DNA from: Gammaproteobacteria bacterium
GTDB lineage: Bacteria; Pseudomonadota; Gammaproteobacteria; Ga0077536
Reading direction: 5' to 3'
Assembly: GCA_030429865.1 (NCBI GenBank)
Contig: JAUIFX010000027.1
Location: forward strand, 1-32,557
Length of the DNA: 32,557 nucleotides
Shown here: positions 23,526 through 30,791 of the stretch, one piece after another
How positions within the stretch are numbered: the stretch's first letter is position 1
How the letters are laid out: each line of letters begins with the position of its first letter
Program-made: the position numbers and the translations under genes
Notes under the pieces: generated by a model
Told to the model about the DNA's origin: nothing
The model's input: only the letters and a program-made list of their open reading frames with translations
Databases searched by the model: none

Positions 23526-23903
23526 CATTCCCTACACTCTGTAACAACGCAACAGCTTGTGCTTTACCCTGGCGCGCACCACAATTGCCCCAATTGGGGG
23601 ATAGCCGGTGCGCACTCGCCTCATCCACGAGCGAATCAGCGCATCGCATGCCCGACTGCGTGTCGCAAGGACCGCTGCCGCGAAACTTCGAGCCGGACGC
23701 CAGCACGCCGCTGGAGGGCAGTCATCGCGAGCAACGTAACCATCCCGGCGCACGTTCCGAGGAGCCGATTCCATGCGGACAGTTTGTCAGCACAGTCGCG
23801 TGCGCTTTGCGGCCGTCATCGTGCGGTCCGCGCGCTCACGCGCGGCAGCTGCCAGCGCATGGCCGCACCTCGGCGTCGCGCCACCCGGTGCGTGTCCGGG
23901 CTG
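23526..23903 (+). other. Intergenic region, 378 bp, upstream of the kinase gene
   Basis: No frame here has family similarity. A perfect TTGACA hexamer (23522-23527) overlaps the bclA stop but has no -10 at 15-19 bp. A perfect 12-bp palindrome CCCCAATTGGGG lies at 23588-23599. The rest is unremarkable. The promoter of the signalling pair is presumably here. Confidence 0.5.
23588..23599. promoter_or_regulatory. Perfect palindrome CCCCAATTGGGG
   Basis: This is a 12-bp perfect palindrome in the otherwise featureless leader of the kinase gene, 305 bp before its ATG. It could be a dimeric regulator site. It lacks a U-tract, so it is not a good terminator for the benzoate operon. Confidence 0.35.
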
Positions 23904-25343
23904 ATGAACGACACGTCGCGGATCCTGCTCATCGACGACAGCGCAGCCGACATCGAGCTCGCCGCGCGGCTGCTGCGTGACACCTACGCCAATGCCACCC
24001 TCGTCGCCGTGACGGAAACCGCGACGCTGGCCGACGCCCTGAGCGGTGCGCGTCCCGATGCCGTGGTGCTCGCGCCGGTGCTCGGCTGGGCCAGCAGCGA
24101 GAAAGTCCAGGCCCTGCTGCGCGAGCGCTGGCCGGCGGCCGCGGTCGTGCTGTTCGGCCACGAACGCGATGTCGTCGGCGCCTGCCTCAACCCCGGACGC
24201 GCCTGCGCCGGTATCGTGCGCAAGAGCAGCGGCGGCTTCATGGCCCTGTCGGACGTGCTCGGCGCCGCCCTCGCGCGCGCGGCGGCGCCCCCGTCGGCCA
24301 TCCCGTCGACGCTCGACGCCCTGCCCTTGCCAGCGGTGCGCGGCGACGCGGGCGGTGTCATCCTCGCAACCAGCGCGAGCTTCGCCACGCACCTCGGCAG
24401 CAGCCCGGCAAAGCTGCTCAACACCCCCCTCGCGGCGCATTGTCTCGACACCGACGCCCGCGACACCCTGCAGGACTTTCTCGGCGGTGACGACGCCGAA
24501 TGCGCGATCGCACTGGCCGACAGCACGAACGCTCCGGCCGGGACCCTCGCCCTGCGCCGCGGCGCCGACGACGGCCTGCTCGGCTGCCTGCTCGTGCCGC
24601 CCGCGACGGCCCCGGTCCCGGCGGGTGCGGGTCACGAGCCCGATGCCGCGAGCCGCGAAGTGCATGACATGGCGCTGGTCTTCTCACACGACCTGCGCCA
24701 GCCCATGCAGCAGATCATGCGCCTCGCGCGCCAGCTCGGCGAGGCCGACGGCAAACCCACGCCGCGCGGCGACGCACGCACGCTCGATCAACTGCACACC
24801 TGCGCCGAGCGCGCCAGCAACATGCTCGACAGCATGCTCGAATACCTCGCGGTCTCCGCGCGCGACGAACGCCCGGGCCTGGTCGACCTGAACCAGTGCC
24901 TCGACGAGGCGTTGGACAACCTGCGCGCGAGCATCGACGAGAACGAAGCGCAGGTCTACGCCGAGCGCCTGCCGTCGATCGTCGGCGATGCCTACCAGAT
25001 GGTGCACCTGTTCCAGAACCTGGTCGGCAACGCGCTCAAGTTCCGCGGGCGGGCACGACCCGAGGTGCGCATCGTGACGCGCGAAGAGCACGGTCGCTGG
25101 CGTATCGAGGTACAGGACAACGGCATCGGCGTACCGCCCGCCCACCGCGAGCGCGTGTTCGAGATGGGCCAGCGCCTGCACACCCACGACGAATATCCGG
25201 GCACCGGCATGGGCCTCGCGCTGTGCCGGCGCATCGTCGAACGACATGGAGGTACGATCCGCCTTGAAAGCGGTGCGGAGAGCGGCAGCGTGGTCGTCAT
25301 CGACCTGCCACTTCCGCCCGGTCAAATGACGCGCCTCGCCTGA
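23904..25343 (+). CDS. Sensor histidine kinase with N-terminal pseudo-receiver
   Basis: The 479-residue soluble protein has a receiver-like domain (about 5-125), a linker or PAS-like middle (about 135-235), a HisKA domain and an HATPase domain. The receiver keeps the acidic pair (Asp11-Asp12) and a Lys near 107, but the phospho-acceptor position is Ala57 (VVLAPVL), so it should not be phosphorylated. The H-box is FSHDLRQPM (His262). The N-box QNLVGNALKF (371-380), G1 DNGIGV (405-410) and G2 GTGMGLAL (433-440) are intact, so the kinase should be active. The SHDLR type resembles phytochrome-like kinases. The ATG at 23904 is preferred because the domain begins there. The diguanylate-signalling gene follows after 20 bp. 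Confidence 0.88.
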   Translation: MNDTSRILLIDDSAADIELAARLLRDTYANATLVAVTETATLADALSGARPDAVVLAPVLGWASSEKVQALLRERWPAAAVVLFGHERDVVGACLNPGRACAGIVRKSSGGFMALSDVLGAALARAAAPPSAIPSTLDALPLPAVRGDAGGVILATSASFATHLGSSPAKLLNTPLAAHCLDTDARDTLQDFLGGDDAECAIALADSTNAPAGTLALRRGADDGLLGCLLVPPATAPVPAGAGHEPDAASREVHDMALVFSHDLRQPMQQIMRLARQLGEADGKPTPRGDARTLDQLHTCAERASNMLDSMLEYLAVSARDERPGLVDLNQCLDEALDNLRASIDENEAQVYAERLPSIVGDAYQMVHLFQNLVGNALKFRGRARPEVRIVTREEHGRWRIEVQDNGIGVPPAHRERVFEMGQRLHTHDEYPGTGMGLALCRRIVERHGGTIRLESGAESGSVVVIDLPLPPGQMTRLA

Positions 25344-25363
25344 AACCGGTCCGGGGAGAAACC

Positions 25364-27499
25364 ATGTCAAGTCAGTCGACGCCGCTGCGTATCCTGATGA
25401 TCGAGGACGATCGCATCGAGGCGGAGCTGATTCGCCGGCAGCTCGCGCAATCGGCCTACACCGCAGCGGAGATCGAGCACCATCAGCGCATCGCGCAGGC
25501 TCTCGAACGCTTGCGCGAGGAACGCTACGACATCGTCCTGCTCGACCTCAACCTGCCCGATGGCCACGGCGTCAGCAATCTCACGCGCGTGGTCGGGGCC
25601 TGCGATACCGTTCCGGTCATCATCCTGACTAACGTCGAGGACGAACGGACCGCCACCGACCTGGTGCGCGAAGGCGCGCAGGACTACCTCATCAAGCGCC
25701 ACATCACGGCCGACCTGCTGGCCCGCGCGATCCGCTACGCGATGGCGCGCAAGGGCGCCGAAGTGCGCCTGCGCGAGAGCGAGAAGCGTTTCGCCCTCGC
25801 GGTTGCCGGCGCACGCGACGGCATCTGGGACTGGGATCTCGAGAGCGACCACGTCTACTACTCGCCGCGTTGGGCGGACCTGCTGGGCCTGGCTCCGGAA
25901 CAGGCTCTGCCCGAGCCGGCGACCTGGCTGGACCGCATCGAGAGCGACGATCAAACCGGGCTGCGCAAGGCACTGCAGGCGCATCTCGACGGCGAGACGC
26001 CGCACTTCGAATACGAATGCCGCATGCGCAACACCGCAGGCGAACAGATCTGGGTCCTCGCGCGCGGCCTCGCGGTGCGTGACGAACACGGCCGCGCGGT
26101 GCGCATTGCCGGCTCGCTCTCGGACATCAGCGACCGCAAGTCGACCGAGGCGATGCTCGTGCACGAAGCCCTGCACGACGCGCTGACCGGCCTGCCCAAC
26201 CGCAACCTGTTTCTCGACCGTCTCGACCTGGCGATGCGCCAGCACCGCCGCGATCGCAAGCGCAAGTTCGCCGTGCTGTTCCTCGATCTCGATCGCTTCA
26301 AGGCGATCAACGACAGCCTCGGCCACGCCGCCGGTGACGAACTGCTGATCGAGTTCGGACGCCGGCTCGGCATGTTCCTGCGCCCGGGCGACTCGGTCGC
26401 CCGGCTCGGCGGCGACGAGTTCGCGATCCTGCTCAACGATGTGGCCAATCTCAGCGAAGCGACGCGCGTCGCCGAGCGCGTGCACGAGCTGTTGTCGCAG
26501 AAGTTCGTCATAGCCGACAAGGAAATCTTCGCCACGGCGAGCATCGGCATAGCGCTCAGCGACGTGAAATACGAACGCTCGGGAGACCTGCTGCGCGACG
26601 CCGACCTCGCGATGTACCGCACCAAGCGTCGCCGCGCCGGTTCCTATGCCGTGTTCGACAGCTTCATGCACGAAACGGCGCTGCAACGGCTCGAGCTGGA
26701 AACCGACCTGCGCTCGGCGATCTCGCGCGGCGAGCTGGCCGTCTATTACCAGCCGATCGTCTCGCTCGAGCACATGCGCGTGGTCGGCTTCGAGGCCCTG
26801 ATGCGCTGGTTCCACCCGGTACGTGGCCTGATCGGTCCGGACGACTTCATTCCGCTCGCCGAGGAGAGCGGCACGATCGGCGCGCTGACCTGGTGGATCA
26901 TGCGCGAAGCCTGTCGCCAGACACGCGCCTGGCAGCAAAGCGATCCGACGTTCGACGACTTGTCGATCAGCGTCAACGTCTCGACGCGACTGTTCTCCGA
27001 TCCGGATTTCGCACAGCGCACCGTGCGCATCCTCGAGGAAGTGGAACTCCCGCCCTCGGCACTGCACCTCGAGATAACGGAGAACGCCTTGCTCGAGCAC
27101 GAGGCCGAAACCCTGCGCGAGCTCTCGGCCCTGCAGAAGGTCGGCGTGAAATTGCACCTCGACGATTTCGGCACCGGCTATTCCTCGCTGAGCTACCTCA
27201 ACCTGTTCGCCTACGACACGCTGAAGATCGATCGCTCCTTCGTATCCGCCGCCCGCGACGGCAGCCGCGATCGGCGCATCGTCGATGCGCTCGTCAACCT
27301 CGGCCGCGTGCTCGACATGAACGTCATCGCCGAAGGCGTCGAGACGCAGGAGCAGGCGCAGAACCTGCGCGAGCTGAAATGTTGCATGGCGCAGGGATTC
27401 TGGTTCTCCAAGCCGCTGCCGGCCGAGTCGGCGGAGGCCCTGCTCGCGCGCGAACGCAGCCTCTCGTCGAGTTCGATCCGCAACCTGACGCGGAACTGA
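25364..27499 (+). CDS. Receiver-PAS-GGDEF-EAL protein (cyclic di-GMP signalling)
   Basis: The 711-residue protein has a receiver domain (about 8-125, phospho-acceptor Asp61 in VLLDLNLPDG), a PAS domain with PAC (about 140-260), a GGDEF domain and an EAL domain. RLGGDEF (347-353) is intact, and an RxxD inhibitory site (RPGD, 340-343) lies five residues upstream. The EAL domain keeps EAL (477-479), EITEN, DDFGTGYSSLSYL, KIDRSFV and AEGVE. It could therefore make or break cyclic di-GMP. GGGGAG six bases before the ATG supports the start. The preceding histidine kinase is the obvious partner for Asp61. Confidence 0.95.
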   Translation: MSSQSTPLRILMIEDDRIEAELIRRQLAQSAYTAAEIEHHQRIAQALERLREERYDIVLLDLNLPDGHGVSNLTRVVGACDTVPVIILTNVEDERTATDLVREGAQDYLIKRHITADLLARAIRYAMARKGAEVRLRESEKRFALAVAGARDGIWDWDLESDHVYYSPRWADLLGLAPEQALPEPATWLDRIESDDQTGLRKALQAHLDGETPHFEYECRMRNTAGEQIWVLARGLAVRDEHGRAVRIAGSLSDISDRKSTEAMLVHEALHDALTGLPNRNLFLDRLDLAMRQHRRDRKRKFAVLFLDLDRFKAINDSLGHAAGDELLIEFGRRLGMFLRPGDSVARLGGDEFAILLNDVANLSEATRVAERVHELLSQKFVIADKEIFATASIGIALSDVKYERSGDLLRDADLAMYRTKRRRAGSYAVFDSFMHETALQRLELETDLRSAISRGELAVYYQPIVSLEHMRVVGFEALMRWFHPVRGLIGPDDFIPLAEESGTIGALTWWIMREACRQTRAWQQSDPTFDDLSISVNVSTRLFSDPDFAQRTVRILEEVELPPSALHLEITENALLEHEAETLRELSALQKVGVKLHLDDFGTGYSSLSYLNLFAYDTLKIDRSFVSAARDGSRDRRIVDALVNLGRVLDMNVIAEGVETQEQAQNLRELKCCMAQGFWFSKPLPAESAEALLARERSLSSSSIRNLTRN

Positions 27500-27712: not shown

Positions 27713-28816
27713 ATGAGCGCCTCGCGGGCGCCGCTGCGCAAGATCGTCCATGTCGACATGGACGCCTTCTACGCGTCGGTCGAGCAGCGTGACGATCCGG
27801 CGCTGCGCGACCGGCCCGTGGTGGTCGCCTGGCGCGGACGGCGTTCGGTGGTCTGCGCCGCATCCTACGAGGCGCGCAGGTTCGGCATCCACTCGGCGAT
27901 GCCGGCGGCGCGGGCGGAACGCTTGTGCCCTCACGCCGTGTTCGTGCCGCCCGACTTCACGCGCTATCGCGCGGTGTCTGCCGAGGTGCGCGCGATCTTC
28001 GCGCGCTATACCGACCTCGTCGAGCCGCTCTCGCTGGACGAGGCGTATCTCGACGTGACCGAGAACAAGCGCGGGCTCGAGACCGCGACGCAGGTCGCGC
28101 GCGCCATTCGTGCCGACATCCGAGCCGAGACCGGCCTCAACGCGTCGGCCGGCGTGGCGCCCGCCAAGTACCTGGCCAAGATCGCCTCCGACTGGCGCAA
28201 GCCCAATGGCCTGTTCGTCATCCAGCCCCACGAGGTGCTGGATTTTCTCGCCCCGCTACCGGTCGGCAAGCTGCCGGGCGTCGGCCGCGCGACCCGTGGC
28301 GCGCTCGACGCGCTCGGCATCCACACCGTGGGCGAACTGCGGCAGCGTCCGCTGGCCGAGCTCGCGGCGCGTTTCGGCAAGTTCGGCGCGCGCCTGCACG
28401 ATCTCGCGCACGGCATAGACACGCGCACCGTGCAGCCGCGCCAGGTGCGCAAGTCGTTGTCCGCGGAAACGACTTTCGAAGCCGACCGCACGCTCGATGA
28501 GCTCACCGCGCCGCTCGCCGAGCTCGCCGCGCGCGTATGGCGCAGTCTCGATCGCAGCCGGCGCGAACCCCGCACGGTGGTGCTCAAGCTCAAGACCAGC
28601 GACTTCCGGCTGTTGACGCGCAGTCACACGCCACCGCAACCGCCGTCCAGTGCCGACGAGTTCGCGGCACTCTCACGCGCGCTGCTCACGCGCGTCGATC
28701 TGCCGCCCGCCACGCGTTACCGCCTGGTCGGCATCGGTCTGAGCAATTTCCAGCTGCGTGAACAGGGCGAACGCCAACCGGGACTCTTCGCCGAGTCGCC
28801 GGGTCCGGCGGACTAG
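27713..28816 (+). CDS. dinB: DNA polymerase IV (Y-family, translesion)
   Basis: The 367-residue polymerase bypasses damaged template bases at low fidelity. The catalytic motifs are HVDMDAFYASVE (13-24, with the steric-gate aromatic at Tyr20) and SLDEAYLD (107-114). A helix-hairpin-helix region PVGKLPGVGRATRGALDALG and a little-finger domain follow. QPGLF near the C-terminus resembles the beta-clamp binding motif. ATG 27713 is chosen for fit with family N-termini; an ATG at 27677 would add twelve Ala/Gly-rich residues. No LexA box is obvious upstream. The preceding 213-bp gap holds nothing recognisable. Confidence 0.94.
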   Translation: MSASRAPLRKIVHVDMDAFYASVEQRDDPALRDRPVVVAWRGRRSVVCAASYEARRFGIHSAMPAARAERLCPHAVFVPPDFTRYRAVSAEVRAIFARYTDLVEPLSLDEAYLDVTENKRGLETATQVARAIRADIRAETGLNASAGVAPAKYLAKIASDWRKPNGLFVIQPHEVLDFLAPLPVGKLPGVGRATRGALDALGIHTVGELRQRPLAELAARFGKFGARLHDLAHGIDTRTVQPRQVRKSLSAETTFEADRTLDELTAPLAELAARVWRSLDRSRREPRTVVLKLKTSDFRLLTRSHTPPQPPSSADEFAALSRALLTRVDLPPATRYRLVGIGLSNFQLREQGERQPGLFAESPGPAD

Positions 28817-28925
28817 CCCGGCGCGGCAGCCTGCGGCGCCCGCCCACGAGGCCGGCGCCGCGCGCGGAACACGCCCGGCCGGGCCGTTCCGGTCGGGCGG
28901 CCTCCCGGGGAGACCGGTGACGCGC
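28817..28925. other. Convergent gap with GC-rich inverted repeats
   Basis: The gap between dinB and the CTERM gene contains short palindromes such as GCCCGGCCGGGC near 28875. There is no U-tract on either strand, so no intrinsic terminator can be assigned. Confidence 0.35.
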
Positions 28926-29501
28926 TCAGCCGGGGCGCCGGCGCACCGCGAACAGCGCCACGACGCTGCCGAGCAGCACCACCGGCGCGGGCAGCGGCAC
29001 CGGTGCGGCCGTGATCTGCAGCTGGTAGGAGAAGTCCGTGCTGCCGCCGCCGGTGAAGCTGAAATCGGCGAAACCCGACACGGCCGCGACGTAGGTGCCG
29101 GCGATCAGTGCATCGTAGCTCAGCAACGAATCGAAGCCCGGGCCGCCGTCGTCGTCGACCGCGAGCTGTGCGCCGCCGAGATCGTACAGGGCGACGACCG
29201 GGTCATCGCCGAACTGCGGCCCTTCGGGCGTGTTCACGGCCAGCGTGATGCGCGTGTTGTCGGCCACGCTGAAGCTGTAGAAATCGGCGTCGGAATTGTC
29301 CACGACCAGACCGCCGAACACGCTGCCGCGAAAGCCGAACACGTTGATCACGCCGCCGTCACCGAACGGGTCGACGTCCTGCGCCGTGGCCACGCTGCCA
29401 TTGTCGACGGCGAGATTCTCGGTTGCGGCGAAAGCGCCGCCGGACAGCAGCGCGAGTAGTGCAGCGCCGCACAGTGAGAGGGACGATTTGCGATAGTTCA
29501 T
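28926..29501 (-). CDS. VPLP-type CTERM surface protein (exosortase substrate)
   Basis: The 191-residue product has a signal peptide with likely cleavage after AFA near residue 25. A beta-rich domain resembling bacterial pre-peptidase C-terminal domains follows (DADFYSFSVADNTRITLAV, then DPVVALYDLGGAQLAVDDDGG). The C-terminus is a three-part sorting tail: VPLPA at about 168, a hydrophobic span, and RRRPG at the end. This is the VPLPA variant of the PEP-CTERM signal, cut by an exosortase; no exosortase gene is in this window. AAGGA precedes the ATG, and a sigma-54 type promoter lies about 130 bp upstream, as is usual for this class. It is probably exported into an exopolysaccharide-rich matrix. 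Confidence 0.85.
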   Translation of the reverse strand: MNYRKSSLSLCGAALLALLSGGAFAATENLAVDNGSVATAQDVDPFGDGGVINVFGFRGSVFGGLVVDNSDADFYSFSVADNTRITLAVNTPEGPQFGDDPVVALYDLGGAQLAVDDDGGPGFDSLLSYDALIAGTYVAAVSGFADFSFTGGGSTDFSYQLQITAAPVPLPAPVVLLGSVVALFAVRRRPG

Positions 29502-29630
29502 GGTTCGATTCCTTGGTTCAGCCTTCCCGGGCGATAAGCCGCGACCCGCCGCACGTGCGGCGAGCAGCGCCTACGGCCGGTGCGCCGGCGAGGCTTCCTC
29601 GCTGCCTCCGGCCACCCGCCAGTGCATTGC

Positions 29631-29646
29631 AGCAAAATCCGCGCCA
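29631..29646 (-). promoter_or_regulatory. Sigma-54 (RpoN) type promoter of the CTERM gene
   Basis: Read on the minus strand, TGGCGCGGATTTTGCT matches TGGCAC-N5-TTGC with one change. The invariant GG and GC are exactly 10 bp apart. Transcription would start near 29618, leaving a leader of about 117 bases. A second, weaker match (TGGCACG...AGGCA) lies at 29693-29678. Confidence 0.7.
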
Positions 29647-29716
29647 TCCCGGCAAAGAACTGATTCAGCGACGATTTTGCCTTGCCCGTGCCAAGCGGGC
29701 GCGGCCGCTTGTAAAG

Positions 29717-29731
29717 CCGCCTGACAGGCGG
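29717..29731. promoter_or_regulatory. Candidate enhancer-binding site upstream of the CTERM promoter
   Basis: CCGCCTG-A-CAGGCGG is a perfect 7-bp inverted repeat centred about 105 bp upstream of the predicted start. That is the usual place for an enhancer-binding activator of RpoN. PEP-CTERM genes are commonly controlled by the PrsK/PrsR system with RpoN, so a PrsR-like site is a reasonable guess. Confidence 0.45.
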
Positions 29732-29987
29732 GCGCGCCGCCCGGGACGGTAGCTGGATAAGAAATTCTATTGCTGTCAGTACGTTAGGCCGATCGCACCG
29801 CGCTGGCGGCGTGTCAAAGGATTTGTCACGTGCCGAACGGCGCGAGTGCGCCACGCACGGCGGCCGGCCGCGATGGCGCGCCCGCGCGCCGCGCCGTCCG
29901 CCTCGTCACGGGCGCCAGCACCATTGCAGGGCATCCCGGGGAACGACCCCGGCGCGCAGGGTTTCCTTCGAGGACTTTCCTGTGATA

Positions 29988-29999
29988 GAAAATGTTTTC
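29988..29999. promoter_or_regulatory. Palindrome GAAAATGTTTTC upstream of the IclR gene
   Basis: Five-base arms around TG form an AT-rich palindrome ending six bases before the chosen ATG. Size and composition suit an IclR-family operator. TATTAT at 30002-30007 could be a -10, in which case translation would begin at the ATG at 30018. Confidence 0.4.
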
Positions 30000-30005
30000 C
30001 GTATT

Positions 30006-30791
30006 ATGAATGAATCGATGCCTGCCCTGCCCGCCACGAACCTCCGCGCGCCGCCGCGCCCGCGCTCGACCCTGCGCGCGCTCGACATCTTCGAAGCGTT
30101 CGAAGCACTCAAGCGCCCGCTGTCGCTGTCGGAACTCGCCCGCGCGGCAGGTTTGCCGGTATCGACGTGCCATGCCGCGCTGCGCGCGCTCGAGGACGCC
30201 GGCTACCTGTGCCAGCTCGAAGGTCGCGGCCTCTACCCGACGCGGCGCCTCGGCGACCTCGCCGATACCATCCGCGCGCACGATCCGGTCGGCGCGCGTC
30301 TCGAACCACGCCTCGCGCAGCTGCGTGAGCAGACCGGTGAGACGGTCATTCTCGGCATCCGCCAGCGCGATGCCGTGCAGTACCTGCTGGTGCTGGAGAG
30401 CGCACAGTCGATCCGCTACTCGGCACGCGCCGGCGCGCAGAAGCCGCTGCATTCGAGCGCGATTGGCAAGGTTCTGCTGGGTGCACTGGACACGCCGGCG
30501 CTGACCGCCTGGCTCGCCGCGCACGACCTGGCGGCGATCACGGCGCAAACCCTGACCGGGCACGACGCGCTCACTGCCGACCTCGCGCGCTCGCGCGCGC
30601 GGGGCTACTACCTGACGCGCGGCGAGAACGTCGCCGACGTCATGGCGGTCGCCGCGCCGCTGGCGCTCGGCCAGACGCTGTGCGGCGTCGCCATTGCCGG
30701 CCCGCTCGCGCGCATGGAGGCCGCGCTGACCACGCACGTCGCGGCGCTGCAGCAGGCCGTCGCCGAACTGGGCGACGCTGCCGCGCCATGA
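30006..30791 (+). CDS. IclR-family transcriptional regulator
   Basis: The 261-residue protein has an N-terminal winged helix-turn-helix (about 22-85, with LSLSELARAAGLPVSTCHAALRALEDAGYL) and a C-terminal ligand-binding domain (about 95-255) containing the usual HSSAIGKVLL and GYYLTRGENVADVMAVAAPL segments. The start is uncertain. ATG 30006 gives a normal N-terminus. A GTG at 29982 has a better ribosome site (GAGGA eight bases upstream) but would place the palindrome inside the coding region. The acyl-CoA mutase follows 84 bp downstream on the same strand and is the likely target. Confidence 0.92.
   Translation: MNESMPALPATNLRAPPRPRSTLRALDIFEAFEALKRPLSLSELARAAGLPVSTCHAALRALEDAGYLCQLEGRGLYPTRRLGDLADTIRAHDPVGARLEPRLAQLREQTGETVILGIRQRDAVQYLLVLESAQSIRYSARAGAQKPLHSSAIGKVLLGALDTPALTAWLAAHDLAAITAQTLTGHDALTADLARSRARGYYLTRGENVADVMAVAAPLALGQTLCGVAIAGPLARMEAALTTHVAALQQAVAELGDAAAP

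Follow-up and report, generated by a model that had tools for sequence, protein, structure and literature searches.

A predicted PrsR- and RpoN-dependent promoter precedes the gene of a VPLPA-tailed protein in an uncultured gammaproteobacterium

The intergenic DNA upstream of the gene of P0001, a putative surface protein of an uncultured gammaproteobacterium, very probably holds a promoter that depends on PrsK/PrsR and RpoN and belongs to the PEP-CTERM/exosortase regulon. By its sequence, this stretch is a sigma-54 promoter of a kind known since 2006 from exosortase-tailed bacterial surface proteins. Two activator boxes are predicted: one overlaps a 15-bp palindrome that an earlier note on this DNA had taken for the activator's binding site, and the other lies about 100 bp further upstream. 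All positions refer to the window, i.e., the whole stretch of DNA that was analysed (32,557 nt, contig JAUIFX010000027.1).

Results

Haft et al. (2006, PMC1569441) described an element that precedes 99 of 167 proteobacterial PEP-CTERM genes, in which a 17-nt motif 1 ending in TTTACA, predicted to be the PrsR site and "sometimes repeated", is followed by a spacer of 62.8 nt on average (32-92) and then by a sigma-54 motif 2. The same order is found upstream of P0001, where the spacer between the proximal box and motif 2 is 63 nt (Table 1).

Table 1. Features of the P0001 gene and its upstream region, with the bases retained in the sister species
Feature	Position	Strand	Sequence	Bases kept in sister species	Remarks
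Distal PrsR-like dyad (predicted)	29828..29812	minus	TGACAAATCCTTTGACA	14/17	102 bp upstream of the proximal box
Perfect 15-bp palindrome	29717-29731		CCGCCTGACAGGCGG		Overlaps the proximal box by 10 bp
Proximal PrsR box (predicted; Haft motif 1)	29726..29710	minus	TGTCAGGCGGCTTTACA	16/17	17 nt, TTTACA end
Sigma-54 -24/-12 element (predicted; Haft motif 2)	29646..29631	minus	TGGCGCGGATTTTGCT	17/20 (region)	11/12 scored consensus positions
Ribosome-binding-site-like motif	29510..29514	minus	AAGGA		Read from the sequence; within the best-conserved non-coding block
P0001	28926..29501	minus			191 aa; DVUA0089 (FDP) family, NF038127 37.2 bits vs cut-off 29

The -24/-12 element bears out the exact GG-N10-GC geometry that the earlier note had read on the minus strand. 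On its own this geometry is frequent, with 791 occurrences in both strands of the window; the score of the element was equalled at just one other site (65 kb, both strands). Judging from the -12 position, transcription is predicted to start at ~29620. The distance from motif 2 to the start codon (29501) is 129 nt, which falls within the range of 23-221 nt given by Haft et al. and 1.5 SD above their mean of 71, and the non-coding DNA upstream of P0001 extends over ~500 nt (29502-30005), their criterion being more than 200 nt. Another -24/-12-like site, at 29693 (10/12), was rejected: its distance from the box is 16 nt, and the sister species does not conserve it. A scan of 28800-30020 turned up neither a sigma-70 promoter nor an intrinsic terminator, and there was no Rfam match. 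Elsewhere in the window (23559-27499), a histidine kinase gene is followed by that of a response regulator with PAS, GGDEF and EAL domains, possibly a cyclic-di-GMP signalling pair.

The composite pattern TGT-N8-TTTACA, 63 nt, TGG-N9-TGC occurs once in the window, where it scores 20/21 against the consensus, a value that none of 200 shuffles equalled. A looser pattern, TTTACA-N48-78-TGG-N9-TGC, gave 6 matches in 4.6 Mb as opposed to 0 for the reversed control, and the three of them with TGT in place each stand ahead of a CTERM gene. TGT-N8-TTTACA alone showed no excess (4 in the genome vs 3 in the reversed control); it is informative only through its placement ahead of CTERM genes. The central bases of the proximal box are GC-rich, and its matrix score is 16.9, compared with 21.2 in the sister species.

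The sister species belongs to the same genus (L018/L020, contig JAPOKK010000011.1); its genome encodes a protein that is 89% identical to P0001 and was the sole relative returned by a protein search of an 84,980-species collection. Over the intergenic DNA, 287 of 479 bases are identical, giving a background of 60%. The best-conserved non-coding block lies in the start region, with 17/17 bases kept within 29505-29526, and after it the two composite elements are the best-conserved non-coding stretches (Table 1). The layout is the same in the sister species, with TGGCGCGAATCTTGCT as the -24/-12 element, a spacer of 64 nt and a distal box at -105. Orthologues of P0001 from other genera of the family, with 49-58% identity, showed no PrsR box, and the conservation thus concerns two species. 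In four other genera/genomes of the family the tails of the orthologues are of the VPLP or VPVP type and the box is absent, and a more distant relative, from another family (L025), combines a box with an IPAPA tail.

The distal dyad, which the earlier note had missed, is nearly symmetric (6/7 pairs) and is the second-best site of the window after the proximal box when scored with a 17-position matrix built from other sites. Lying between P0001 and a divergent IclR-type gene (30006-30791), conserved and almost fully paired, it might serve that gene and not the P0001 promoter. We regard this as unlikely though not negligible, given how regularly such a copy accompanies box promoters at unrelated loci: a second box (score of at least 12.5, within 230 bp) was present at 8 of the 10 box promoters of the genome, 102-179 bp upstream of the first, and at a ninth promoter it lies 334 bp upstream. 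Across the loci of all genomes, a second box accompanies 26 of 44, against 1-3 of 44 with position-shuffled matrices. A second copy of motif 1 is common here, whereas Haft et al. found it "sometimes repeated". Helical phasing between the boxes was also considered and dropped, with p ~0.06 for the 8 sites of this genome (period 10.5) and p 0.36 for the 26 sites.

A search of the genome for an exosortase, prsK and prsR, part of the check that the earlier note had proposed, and for rpoN recovered all four. Contig C9 carries prsK (TIGR02916, 725 bits vs cut-off 300), prsR (TIGR02915, 686 vs 503) and the exosortase gene xrtA (315 vs 208) together with polysaccharide genes of the XrtA type, and a single rpoN lies on contig C249. 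PrsT (TIGR02917) was not among the scanned ORFs of contig C9. XrtD is the exosortase named for VPLPA tails. In the genome search no XrtD (TIGR04152) was found above the cut-off, the sole match being XrtA itself (125 bits vs 400). The assembly is a draft of 291 contigs, 95.7% complete with 4.6% contamination, and these absences are therefore provisional, while the assembly is also the basis for assigning the contigs to one organism. As a separate observation, contig C92 encodes a second exosortase-family protein (L129:5720-6262), XrtM-like and just short of the cut-off (113 bits vs 125), which carries candidate Cys, Arg and His residues.

These genes support the earlier proposal of a sigma-54 promoter ahead of a gene with an exosortase-type tail. 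The genome also encodes about a dozen further PrsR-like regulators or sigma-54 activators, any of which could in principle drive such a promoter in place of PrsR. This is very unlikely, however, as the box tracks PrsR phylogenetically (Haft et al. 2006, PMC1569441) and sits before PEP-CTERM genes both here and in relatives.

The earlier note had assigned the role of activator operator to the palindrome, whose arms, CCGCCTG and CAGGCGG, flank a central A. The palindrome does exist and is perfect; its stated distance of ~105 bp upstream of the start holds for the predicted transcription start (~104 bp from ~29620) and not for the start codon. Its perfect symmetry, its typical enhancer distance and the 10 bp that it has in common with the proximal box all speak for the proposal, which we nevertheless find highly improbable. 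Perfect palindromes with arms of at least 7 number 16 in the window vs 14.7 in shuffled sequence (69% GC), which means that the palindrome alone is not significant, and longer ones than this are present elsewhere in the window. At its position the sister species has CCGGATGTCAGGCGT, in which the left arm is altered and 4/7 pairs are left, while the shifted 17-mer of the proximal box is kept. Moreover, what the other CTERM genes have in common upstream is TGTC-N7-TTTACA and not the palindrome. Between the two species it is hence motif 1 and motif 2 that are conserved, not the palindrome, which we judge to be incidental. That the entire arrangement arose by chance and has no regulatory role is barely credible, for although many weak matches arise in GC-rich intergenic DNA, the composite has no second occurrence in the window and no match among its shuffles, and both of its elements lead the conserved non-coding stretches after the start region.

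Other palindromes were observed as well. A perfect one of 16 bp, CGCCGCACGTGCGGCG, lies in the predicted 5' untranslated region (29547-29562) and is not conserved in the sister species, and perfect palindromes of 24, 20 and 20 bp are centred near 532, 18270 and 27754 of the window.

P0001 starts with a hydrophobic, signal-like stretch, continues with a PPC-like domain (PF04151, 26.4 vs 25.9) and ends with a VPLPA tail, a hydrophobic stretch and a terminal RRRPG. Its tail, VPLPAPVVLLGSVVALFAVRRRPG, scored 20.6 bits against the VPLP/VPVP tails of the genome and 7.7 against the PEP tails; the VPLP/VPVP tails were partly scored on a model built from themselves, and the P0001 tail was the lowest among them. 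Neither the protein nor its tail matched TIGR02595 (PEP-CTERM), nor did the tail match TIGR03370 (VPLPA-CTERM) despite the letters VPLPA. The "VPLP variant" of the earlier note accordingly stands as regards these letters and the likeness to the genome's VPLP/VPVP tails, and does not stand as regards membership in either model. As the tail fails both NCBIfam models, we infer sorting by an exosortase from the architecture of the protein. A literature search on VPLPA tails or XrtM found no papers.

We then compared promoter box and tail type over the ~47 CTERM-like genes of the genome, collected from TIGR03370 and TIGR02595 matches and from the box search, 40 of which have at least 200 nt upstream (start codons were chosen by eye). 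Of the genes with PEP tails, 10 of 16 scored at least 16/21, vs 1 of 24 with VPLP, VPVP or PIPLP tails (Fisher p 8.5e-5; the cut-off was set after the scores were seen, and p is 1e-4, 0.03 and 0.14 at 15, 17 and 18). A rank test on all promoter scores gave p 0.003 for the same two groups. The single exception is P0001, tied for the top score. Elsewhere in the family, a crude rule recognised 16 box genes with PEP tails and none with VPLP/VPVP tails except the sister gene. In three genomes of other families (G123, G128, G133), the box lies ahead of VPVPAAVWLFGSG-type tails (VPVP) at eight sites (loci L115, L159, L162, L164, L165, L169 and L205), so that a box together with a non-PEP tail is not new in itself. 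When box sites of other genomes were inspected, 37 of 84 had a recognisable CTERM gene downstream, the remaining sites being truncated, unrecognised by the rule or possibly due to chance. As an observation in its own right, the genome holds ~27 VPLP/VPVP-type CTERM genes (L036-L050 and others), mostly without PrsR boxes, and no detectable XrtD.

Discussion

The P0001 promoter agrees with the element of Haft et al. in its 17-nt TTTACA motif, 63-nt spacer, GG/GC element, long intergenic region and repeated motif 1, and in the presence of PrsK/PrsR and an exosortase in the genome. It differs from that description in that the gene has a VPLPA-like tail and not PEP, and no other such gene of this genome was found to carry the element. 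Like pepA of Aquincola tertiaricarbonis, it combines a predicted enhancer with an RpoN-type -24/-12 element, both upstream of a CTERM gene; unlike pepA, whose start was determined by primer extension and whose rpoN dependence was demonstrated (PMC9850573), the promoter described here is known from its sequence, and the protein family is a different one. In Zoogloea, control by prsK/prsR, with mutants, is reported in PMC9012009. In Desulfovibrio vulgaris, DVUA0057 (PrsR), a regulator of the same class, bound its five predicted CTERM targets in a DAP-chip assay (PMC3333781); the family of P0001 is named for another protein of that species, DVUA0089. P0001 further resembles the TIGR03370 VPLPA-CTERM/XrtD system in its VPLPA letters, hydrophobic stretch and arginine-rich end, and departs from it in that the tail misses the model and the exosortases of the genome are XrtA and an XrtM-like protein, with no XrtD above the cut-off.

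From the sequence, its conservation and the published work on relatives, we propose that PrsK would detect an envelope or extracellular cue, upon which PrsR would be phosphorylated. PrsR, as an NtrC-type activator, would bind the proximal box, with the distal dyad probably helping, and through looping of the DNA its AAA+ domain would touch the RNA polymerase-sigma54 at the -24/-12 element, leading to promoter opening. The transcript, predicted to begin at ~29620, would carry a single gene, whose product, once exported, would engage an exosortase through its C-terminal tail, and the sorted protein may then join the extracellular or exopolysaccharide layer.

The division by tail type could further be taken to mean that the organism maintains two separately regulated streams of exosortase substrates, one with PEP tails, controlled by PrsR/RpoN and handled by XrtA, the other with VPLP/VPVP tails, lying outside the regulon and handled perhaps by the XrtM-like protein, with P0001 as a bridge between the two. 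We offer this as a doubtful, speculative reading; if true, a VPLP-type substrate would have gained a PrsR promoter in this genus and would be co-expressed with the XrtA set. The papers that we found give little on how PrsR selects its targets, and the split within one genome (10/16 vs 1/24), along with the frequent second box, provides testable details of this choice. Taken together, the predicted promoter would place a gene of an uncultured bacterium in a known biofilm/floc regulon, and it corrects which binding site is to be tested.
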